Of a stretch of 64,000 nucleotides of DNA, positions 4,583 through 30,205 are shown in pieces; position 1 is the stretch's first letter, and each line of letters begins with the position of its first letter. Both the position numbers and the translations under genes were made by a program. Under the pieces are notes generated by a model. It did no database searches. It was not told where the DNA came from and was given only the letters and a program-made list of their open reading frames with translations. The DNA lies in contig NZ_JAAOTJ010000001.1 of the NCBI RefSeq assembly GCF_011297335.1, forward strand, positions 806,001 to 870,000, written 5' to 3'. This stretch comes from Catellatospora methionotrophica. Its GTDB lineage: Bacteria; Actinomycetota; Actinomycetes; Mycobacteriales; Micromonosporaceae.

Positions 4583-4599
4583 TCATATGACGTGTTACC
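4583..4599. promoter_or_regulatory. Putative FCD-GntR operator
   Basis: TCATATGACGTG begins at 4583 and sits inside the 10-bp palindrome GTCATATGAC (4582-4591). Eleven of its twelve bases match the site at 20589. The assignment to the GntR protein at 15204-16049 is inferred from recurrence around this island. Confidence 0.5.
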
Positions 4600-4618
4600 A
4601 GTAAGTCGGCTCGGTCGA

Positions 4619-4632
4619 TGTTATCGTTCACA
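4619..4632. promoter_or_regulatory. Putative LacI-family operator, copy 1
   Basis: TGTTATCGTTCACA fits the LacI-family pattern TGTNANCGNTNACA with a central CG. It is identical to the copy at 4751-4764. No LacI-family gene is present in the window. Confidence 0.55.
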
Positions 4633-4750
4633 TCTTGGTTGTCAACCCACCCGCACCCATCGATCTTCTCCGGTGGATTACCTCCGATGCGGATGCTTGA
4701 GCTGACCTGCGCACACGCGAAACCTTTTCGTCACATCTTGACTCACGCCC

Positions 4751-4764
4751 TGTTATCGTTCACA
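4751..4764. promoter_or_regulatory. Putative LacI-family operator, copy 2
   Basis: Second exact copy of TGTTATCGTTCACA, 132 bp from the first and about 190 bp before the GH95 start. Paired sites suggest looping or cooperative repression. Confidence 0.55.
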
Positions 4765-4952
4765 TTCGATGGACCGCGGGAGGGTCGGCACCGTCACCCG
4801 CCTCGGCTGGCAGGGCACCGATCGAGCACGTCAGGGCGGTTCGGGTCAGGCGTGCGGCGTGCTCAGACGTCATACAGCGCACTTCCTGTCTTGCACCACG
4901 TCGACCTCCGGCGCGCTTCTCCCATCCCGCTGTTGCTTCAAGGAGTTGAGCG

Positions 4953-28364: not shown

Positions 28365-28423
28365 GTCTCTTCCTTTCGAATACCGCAGCTCGGCGGTGCC
28401 CGCCGCTGCGTCCGGAGTGCGTG

Positions 28424-28449
28424 CGGGCCGGCACTGTGCGGCCGGCCCG
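28424..28449. terminator. Weak hairpin between esterase and beta-helix genes
   Basis: 9-bp inverted repeat, arms 28424-28432 and 28441-28449, 8-nt loop. It may only attenuate transcription. Confidence 0.45.
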
Positions 28450-28459
28450 GTGGTCCCGG

Positions 28460-29815
28460 TCAGCTCCGGGTGCTCCACTGCTGATTCGCGCCGCCGTGGC
28501 AGCTCCACAGCTGGAGCTTGGAACCATTGGCGGTCGCCGCGCCCGACACGTCGACGCACAGCCCCGACTGGACACCGGTGACGGTGCCGTTGGCGTTGAG
28601 GACCCACTGCTGGTTGGCCTGGCCGTTGCAGTCCCAGATGATCACGGCGGTGCCGTTGGCGGTCCCGTTGGCGTTGGCGTCCAGGCACTTGTTGCCGTAC
28701 ACCGTGAGCTGCCGGTTCGCGGTGTAGGTCCAGCGCTGGTTGGTGCCGCCGTGGCAGTCCCACAGCTGCGGCTGGGCGCCGTTGGCGGTGCTGGAGTTGG
28801 GCACGTCGGCGCAGCGTCCCGACTGCTGGGCCACCAGCAGTACGTTCGACTGGCCGGGAGTGGGGCTGCTCGGCGGCGCGGAGCTCGGTGGGGAACTCGA
28901 GCCGAACTGCGACAGGAACCGCCAGGCCTCCGCCTTGGTCCAGGTTCGGGCGCCGTCCTCGCAGCCGGAGCAGTTGTCCACCGGCGCCGGCCCGTGACCG
29001 CCGTCGAACGCGGCCCACTGCACCGGATACCCCGACCGGCAGGAGTAGGTGGTCGTGATGTGCCGACCGCTGCCCACCGAAGGTTCCGGGGCGTTCTGCT
29101 GCGCGCAGCCGTTGTTGCGCAGGAAGGCGTCGCGTAGCGAGCGGCCCTGCGAGATGTTGAGCACGTTGTCGGAGATGCCGTGGATGCCGAAGTAGGCGAT
29201 CGGCTGGCCGCCGCCGCCGCAGCCGGACAACTGCGCGCCCGAGTACACCACCACGGCGCGGAACACGGCCGCGCGGGCGCAGGCGAGCGCGTAGCTCATG
29301 CCTCCGCCGTAGCTGAAGCCCATGGCGAACCGCTGGGTGGTGTCGACGCACAGGTCGGTCTCGATCATGCGGATCATGTCGTCGGTGAAGGTGACGTCGG
29401 CGCCGCCGGAGTTGGCCCAGCCGTTGCCGAGTCCCTGCGGGGCGACCAGGACGGCGCTGTTGTCGGACTGCTGCTGCATGCCGTAGTACGACCAGGTGGT
29501 CCCGCTGCTGCCGCCCGACGAGACGTCGTTCATGGTCCCTCCCCGCCAGTGGTAGGCGAAGATGAGCCGGTAGGGGCGGGAGTTGCTGTAGCCGTCGGGA
29601 ACGCGCAGATTGAAGCTGCGGCTCTGACCGCCGCTCTGGATGGTGTACGTGCCGGTGCGCAGGGTCGGGGCCTTGCCGCATCCGGCGGTCGTCGCGGCGT
29701 ACGCCGCCGGGCCGGTCAGCGCGGTGGCCACGAGGGTTCCCGCGAGGACGACGGCGGATGCGCCGAGCGCGGCGAACCATCGTTGCCGGGCCTGTCGGTG
29801 GTGGATGGATGTCAC
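28460..29815 (-). CDS. Secreted CE1-type esterase (acetylxylan/feruloyl esterase, LpqC-like) with CBM13
   Basis: 451 aa from ATG 29815. Signal peptide [20 protein letters not shown] ending AYA. The alpha/beta hydrolase (about 45-310) matches polyhydroxybutyrate-depolymerase/feruloyl-esterase proteins: [20 protein letters not shown], nucleophile Ser in MGFSYGGG, Asp region HGISDNV, and His in [10 protein letters not shown] Ser/Pro linker ([15 protein letters not shown]) connects to a CBM13 trefoil. It should remove acetyl or feruloyl groups from xylan, supporting the GH10 enzyme. It is divergent from the SGNH esterase and shares a 390-bp control region with it. Confidence 0.88.
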
Positions 29816-30205
29816 GGTGTCGTCTCCTTGCCGGGAGGGAACCGCACTGCCGTCATCCGGTTGCGACCGGGGCGGGACAGCACGGCCAGACCGCCGCGCC
29901 GGGCGGGCAGGCGGTTGATCTGTCTGCGGGGGTGGTGCCGGACCTGGATGTGACGGCCGGTGAGCCGGTCACCGGCCCGGTGGTCGCCGCACCGCTCAGC
30001 GGGCTGAGCGGCGGTCGGCTCGCTGCCCCAGGCCGACTGTCCCAGTGGGACAGCGCCACCGTAACGACGTAACACGTCACATGTCAACGACCGTCAGTAC
30101 TACCAAGGTAGATGGCAGATTCATCCCTTGACGCATCCAATGTTATCGGTCACATTGGAGCGAATACATCACACGTCATCCATGTTGTGAACGAAGGGAA
30201 CGACC
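29816..30205. promoter_or_regulatory. Divergent control region of two esterase genes
   Basis: 390 bp with no gene. Contains TCACATGTCAAC (30077-30088) and ATCACACGTCATC (30168-30180), both like the GntR-type sites, and a LacI-type site at 30141-30154. The combination mirrors the GH95 promoter. Confidence 0.55.
30141..30154. promoter_or_regulatory. Putative LacI-family operator, copy 3
   Basis: TGTTATCGGTCACA differs from the two copies before GH95 by one base and keeps the TGTNANCGNTNACA pattern. It is about 50 bp before the SGNH esterase start. Confidence 0.5.

Follow-up and report, generated by a model that had tools for sequence, protein, structure and literature searches.

GntR proteins of the FadR subfamily, which carry an FCD domain, usually bind operators with a core spaced GT-N3-AC; for 13 groups of this subfamily, extra weaker half-sites are described at 7–12 nt from the site centre (PMC4494728). 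Fucose is not mentioned in the main text of that paper, and no fucose regulon is described there. Two further systems are close to the locus presented here, namely NanR of Escherichia coli with its (GGTATA)3 operator (PMC8012715) and PUL-XylL of Bacteroides ovatus, which acts on corn glucuronoarabinoxylan and includes a GH95 enzyme; enzymes of family GH95 can be specific for L-fucose or for L-galactose (PMC4491172). A literature search by titles and abstract openings found nothing on the GntR regulon described below, and at that level TCATACGTATGA turned up as a word in two papers, both about different topics.

We analyzed a window of 64,000 nucleotides from the soil actinobacterium Catellatospora methionotrophica. 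An earlier note on this DNA had proposed that a TCATAYG operator links most units of a fucose-type gene island, with the GntR protein encoded within it as the candidate reader. The genes of the island, which would serve to remove and consume fucose-like plant sugars, and the predicted sites are collected in Table 1; additionally, the island contains a PaaX-like regulator gene at 24348–25409, which recurs in most related loci.

Table 1. Genes and predicted regulatory sites of the island (positions in the window).
Feature	Coordinates	Strand	Remarks
GSDH-PKD-CBM6-ricin B secreted protein	1508..4501	-	domain search
Predicted operator ATGTCATATGACGTGTTACC	4580..4599	.	between GSDH (-) and GH95 (+)
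LacI-like operator TGTTATCGTTCACAT, first of pair	4619..4633	+	exact-match search
LacI-like operator TGTTATCGTTCACAT, second of pair	4751..4765	+	exact-match search
GH95	4953..7949	+	
Predicted operator TATGACGTCATACGTGTGATGTGATG	7979..8004	.	before first beta-helix (GH141-like) gene
GH141-like (first beta-helix) protein with ricin B lectin domain	8086..10485	+	
Aldo-keto reductase	10537..11511	-	closest solved relatives L-galactose dehydrogenases
Zn-dependent dehydrogenase	11876..12901	-	
Predicted operator TATGACATCATATGTTTACC	12941..12960	.	between Zn-dehydrogenase (-) and lactonase (+)
Amidohydrolase, L-fucono-1,5-lactonase-like	13006..13896	+	below family cut-off
Lactonase paralogue	13955..14806	-	
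Predicted operator CATCATACGTATGACGTCATA	15105..15125	.	upstream of lactonase paralogue (-)
FCD-type GntR regulator, 281 aa (start codon uncertain)	15204..16049	-	Pfam GntR and FCD above cut-off
Four-unit array, GTCANNN x4, 7-bp steps	16090..16117	.	GntR promoter
Enolase-superfamily sugar-acid dehydratase-like	16322..17470	-	
ABC importer: two permeases and solute-binding protein	17472..20526	-	
Predicted operator TCATATGATGTGTGATGTCA	20589..20608	.	between importer operon (-) and GH27 (+)
GH27 with ricin B lectin domain	20619..22337	+	
Three-unit array TCATACG TCATACG TCAATTG	22413..22433	.	between convergent genes, flanked by two GC-rich hairpins
Second beta-helix (GH141-like) protein with ricin B lectin domain	25668..29780	-	
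Predicted operator CGACGTAACACGTCACATGT	30065..30084	.	between second beta-helix gene (-) and GDSL esterase (+)
LacI-like operator TGTTATCGGTCACAT	30141..30155	+	before GDSL esterase
GDSL esterase with ricin B lectin domain	30206..31306	+	

All six TCATAYG cores named in the earlier note were found where it had placed them, and the related TCACATG begins at 30077. A search of the window revealed 11 TCATAYG matches at seven separate places between positions 4583 and 22426 (17.8 kb), as compared to 3.71 expected in the window; none of 100 shuffles reached 11. The whole genome contains 153 matches in 8,391,523 bases (8.39 Mb), a rate at which about 0.3 would be expected by chance in 17.8 kb. Equal frequency elsewhere, which would have spoken against a shared operator, is thus not what was found. 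With the gene boundaries as we drew them, none of the 11 matches is coding. The gaps of the island (3.1 kb) hold seven TCATAYG clusters, as compared to a mean of 0.40 and a maximum of 4 among 2000 shuffles. The consensus 12-mer offered earlier, TCATAYGTNWGA, did not hold up as the operator: it is exact at only two places in the island and at one on contig C54, and its enrichment in the window at up to two mismatches is weak (18 versus 11.7; 7 of 100 shuffles reach 18). The C54 matches, considered as a second cluster, were dropped because their flanks lack an operator-like extension.

The full predicted operator is longer than either the 7-mer or the 12-mer. It consists of TGAY half-sites in a 7-bp register (spacings 7, 14, and 21), arranged as TATGACRTCATACRTRTGATG or as direct repeats. 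Over the eight sites, same-strand TGAY spacings of 7 bp occurred seven times, of 14 bp five times, of 17 bp three times, and of 21 bp twice, while shuffles gave 0.13–0.15 for each of them; the segments counted had been picked by TCATAYG or its relative and not by spacing. GTCATAC/GTATGAC is present within the 7986, 15107, 16105, and 22413 sites, and one-base variants of it at 12948, 20589, 4583, and 30065. The arrangement is mixed, with direct arrays at 16090 and 22413 and palindromes at the remaining sites. Three sites (7979, 12941, and, on the reverse strand, 15112) have the 14-mer TATGACRTCATAYG in common; TATGACRTCATA has no further exact match in the genome. Of these features, repeat finding by itself picked up only an ACGTCAC repeat of 21 bp in the GntR promoter and, at 15098–15127, an inverted repeat of 15 nt; it gave nothing for the 20589 and 7986 sites.

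In the GntR promoter the four GTCA/TGAC units lie exactly 7 bp apart, and a genome search with the 25-mer form of this array, allowing up to three mismatches, returned the array alone. When four TGAY units in 7-bp steps were sought across the genome, the GntR site came up and, apart from it, only a TGACGCC microsatellite with a 7-bp repeat unit (C34:50976-51112, L170-L174). Sites 20589 and 4583 share the form TCATATGAYGTGT plus a further half-site. With up to three mismatches, this form matched five sites in the genome. Of these, three are in the island: the two from which the pattern had been built, and 30065. The matches beyond the island at three mismatches (contigs C21 and C45) were not accepted as regulon members. 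The weak operator-like site on C45 (C45:379944-379963, L138 ~1501; three mismatches) directly precedes the gene of a secreted pectate lyase and is possibly a distant member.

Conservation was scored as the number of invariant columns inside a site block and outside it, with ten genomes compared (this one and nine relatives). The 20589 block was nearly invariant (29/32 versus 40/140 outside; 10/10 genomes). Blocks 12948 (20/32 versus 7/167) and 16105 (18/32 versus 37/149) were likewise present in 10/10 genomes, and block 15107 (21/32 versus 16/146) in 9/10. The 4583 block gave a weak contrast (21/32 versus 79/147; 6/10 genomes), the site not being found in four of the ten. Block 30065 had 24/32 invariant columns versus 37/130 outside in 6/10 genomes; it was not found in the other four, in one of which the contig ends before that site. 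The 7986 block was invariant at 32/32 columns versus 54/153 outside in the three genomes with the exact 7-mer. Before the first beta-helix gene, ATTGCTATGACGTCATACRTGTGATGTGATGC was intact in 9/9 genomes shown, whereas TCATAYG was lost by one base in six of these nine; TCATAYG is therefore only part of the site. Arrays of the 22413 type were present in 4/4 relatives looked at, twice in G109 and in G129. Taken with the enrichment in the gaps and in the genome, these alignments bear out an operator shared across the units of the island.

The assignment of sites to genes had to be revised in places. A site is present before GH95, as the earlier note stated, but it tracks the GSDH gene rather than GH95. 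Its distance to GSDH is 79 nt, as compared to 354 nt for GH95. In G071 it stands beside GSDH and no GH95 was called there, and in G087 a GH43-CBM6 gene separates it from GH95. A similar open frame is present in G109. The site at 30077, previously assigned to the esterases and called weaker, is correctly placed; however, its target is probably the second beta-helix gene and not the esterase, judging from G118, where the site precedes a beta-helix gene and no esterase was called in the 40 kb looked at. Calling it weaker does not fit the conservation of its block. The 15107 site lies 300 bp upstream of its gene and is kept in G009 although no lactonase paralogue was called there. The 22413/22420 array is an addition to the earlier list; the genes around it are convergent, it is flanked by GC-rich inverted repeats at 22352–22391 and 22445–22477, and neither a promoter nor a gene that would account for its placement was found. 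Promoter and terminator scans returned nothing at 20500–20680 or 22330–22510. The 20589 site appears to fill the spacer of an importer promoter, TTGACA-17-TAGCTT; this overlap rests on a reading by eye, since a consensus promoter scan around 20589 found no sigma-70 consensus.

The GntR protein has the domain layout of the FadR/FCD subfamily, an N-terminal GntR winged helix (Pfam GntR 60.4 bits, cut-off 27) and a C-terminal FCD domain (83.6 bits, cut-off 24.3), and is 93% identical to its Catellatospora paridis counterpart. Release from DNA by a carboxylate effector is a further trait of this subfamily. In regulators of the NanR type, an N-terminal extension serves the cooperative assembly of several dimers; in the present protein about 43 residues precede the GntR domain, a variable stretch with an uncertain start codon. 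Among 18 aligned GntR proteins Asp182, His186, and His231 are invariant and His253 is nearly so, a set that we take to fit the FCD metal site.

The 14-mer TATGACRTCATAYG was found in 18 of 300 family genomes, among them all 12 genomes that encode a GntR with at least 80% identity. In five of the other six it precedes a gene homologous to one of the island, namely GSDH in G195 and G169, GH95 in G286 and G131, and in G239 a GH141-like gene inside an enolase-permease-binding protein-GntR cluster. The sixth, G191, has no island homologue within 3 kb of its single match, which was judged a different motif because it sits in a GTGACGTCAC-rich stretch; this stretch resembles one in the C. methionotrophica genome near a Thy1 and a DUF4097 gene. 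Stretches rich in GTGACGTCAC occur near 1501 of L054 and L090, the one in L054 being flanked by DUF4097 and Thy1 genes, and apparently represent a different conserved motif. In a class-wide sample of 394 genomes, TATGACRTCATAYG was present in the C. methionotrophica genome only.

Furthermore, an 18-bp form of the operator was sought upstream of GntR homologues. All 23 entries whose GntR is 52% identical or more, which represent 22 distinct loci (eight of them from Nonomuraea), had it with 0–5 mismatches; the weakest, L030, had 5, a value reached by 3 of 100 shuffles. At 45–50% identity, 15 of 15 entries showed 6–9 mismatches, the level of shuffles; L132, with 42% identity, had four. The fetched flanks of the eight Nonomuraea loci contained no match to the reductase, lactonase, dehydratase, or PaaX-like protein; each of the eight had permease matches of 28–31%, and L032 additionally had one partial match to GH95 (39%). 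In L033 the operator lies between GntR and a divergently oriented gene for an ABC binding protein. In genus g18, three genomes among the matches listed carry a variant 75–103 bp before GntR homologues of 41–43% identity; it was found with a loose 16-mer that is present in 125 of 300 family genomes and lends the assignment weak support. Altogether, this comparison strongly indicates that the local FCD-GntR is the reader of the sites, in agreement with the earlier proposal, and it also backs a regulon that would comprise secreted enzymes, import, and catabolism.

Exact matches to a second operator, the LacI-like TGTTATCGNTCACAT, lie at 4619, 4751, and 30141 and at two more places in the genome; one mismatch adds five further places. 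The seven places beyond the island adjoin genes for GH62, AbfB domains (two), GH43, GH127, GH5/GH27, and an FGGY kinase; a LacI-type gene is present at two of these loci. LacI-type proteins encoded at C1:558,644-559,720 and C1:1,637,203-1,638,231 are candidates for reading TGTTATCGNTCACAT. The pair on the GSDH side is kept in 7/9 relatives at up to two mismatches, always with a spacing of 132 bp. This suggests an additional control of the arabinose/xylan type.

The name "fucose-type" given earlier to the island is plausible, but L-galactose fits equally well according to the comparisons of the lactonases, the dehydratase, and the reductase. The two lactonases scored 171.1 and 138.8 bits against the L-fucono-1,5-lactonase family NF052480, which has a cut-off of 400. 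Against solved structures the dehydratase matched a putative racemase (125.2 bits) and a talarate/galactarate dehydratase (124.1 bits); L-fuconate dehydratases rank below both (about 79 bits), so it is not clearly an L-fuconate dehydratase. By our reading of the alignment, GH95 has a Thr at the polymorphic position, and a Thr there does not decide the sugar according to PMC8245568; Thr/His as proof of L-galactose was dropped after that report.

The sites, their conservation, their spacing, and their co-segregation with GntR were computed directly. Building on them, we consider it probable (about 0.78) that the sites are FCD-GntR operators through which the island is repressed, with a sugar acid or lactone as inducer and a LacI-like second control. 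The FCD-GntR would bind TGAY half-sites on the 7-bp register, either in the extended palindrome TATGACRTCATACRTRTGATG or in direct arrays of three to four units. When inducer is lacking, it would keep its own gene, GSDH, both beta-helix genes, the lactonases, the dehydrogenase, and the importer/dehydratase operon repressed. It would be released once its FCD domain binds a lactone or sugar acid that stems from L-fucose or L-galactose. The LacI-like operator would add arabinose/xylan-type control at GSDH/GH95 and at the esterase. What we infer beyond the computed results is that GntR binds the sites, that it acts as a repressor and not as an activator, and what its inducer is.

Other explanations were weighed. 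That TCATAYG arose by chance or as a by-product of A+T-rich gaps could appeal to the lower G+C content of the gaps as compared to the genes, and to loose matches being common, as the 16-mer form at two mismatches shows. Yet shuffles of the gaps themselves never reached the observed cluster count, the site blocks are conserved among relatives, and exact 14-mers stand upstream of homologous genes in other genera. A chance origin is refuted for the exact operator, and for the motif as a whole it is extremely improbable. It would also be conceivable that another regulator, PaaX-like or encoded elsewhere, reads the sites and that the GntR gene is merely a target. The recurrence of the PaaX-like gene would suit this, as would G169 and G195, which have the operator at GSDH and whose best listed GntR homologues are only 44–46% identical; the G169 homologue (L078) has no site at its own promoter. 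However, the operator stays with GntR in all eight Nonomuraea loci, whose fetched flanks gave no PaaX match, and it falls to shuffle level once GntR identity is down to 45–50%, which makes another reader improbable.

GntR might also bind the sites but act as an activator or dual regulator of the island. The distance of the 15107 site from its gene and the position of 22413 at no promoter are compatible with this. Against it, the 20589 site with its nearly invariant block in ten genomes appears, by eye, to occupy the importer promoter spacer, a position that suits repression; activation or dual regulation is thus improbable.

As a speculative extension, which we regard as less likely than the repression model itself, the sites may form a modular code. 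One FCD-GntR would read 7-bp-phased TGAY units, three to four per site, in direct, inverted, or mixed order, with several dimers bound side by side; the arrangement would tune the promoters, and the array at the convergent hairpins would act without a promoter. Together with the LacI-like operator this might amount to a two-key switch for enzymes stripping L-galactose/L-fucose tips from complex arabinoxylan. The analysis provides a concrete candidate regulon and operator for an uncharacterised FCD-GntR of Micromonosporaceae and Nonomuraea, and secreted proteins about which little is understood (GH141-like, GSDH-ricin B) would be joined in a single sugar programme. With their phased half-sites, the arrays also offer a simple system for studying the recognition of direct as opposed to inverted repeats by GntR dimers.

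A local regulon of the FadR type, well supported here, is a known and fairly ordinary kind of control; the phased arrays are what is unusual about it. The regulator belongs to the same protein family as the FadR-subfamily (FCD) regulators, and GTCATAC, present with GTATGAC as its reverse form at four of the sites here, reads GT-N3-AC; the extra weaker half-sites of that subfamily resemble the half-sites here, which, unlike those operators, form 7-bp arrays in direct and inverted order (PMC4494728). The best NCBIfam match of the protein was NanR (NF003011), at 113.7 bits below the cut-off of 260, so that its sequence does not place it in the NanR subfamily; closely spaced direct repeats, as in operators of NanR-type regulators, are present in the 7-bp arrays at 16090 and 22413. 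E. coli NanR likewise combines a direct-repeat operator with sugar catabolism, but half-site and spacing differ, and the repeats here are mixed with palindromes (PMC8012715). Finally, PUL-XylL of B. ovatus likewise has GH95 in company with a GH10 xylanase and an alpha-D-galactosidase, whereas the regulators and the import machinery here are different (PMC4491172).
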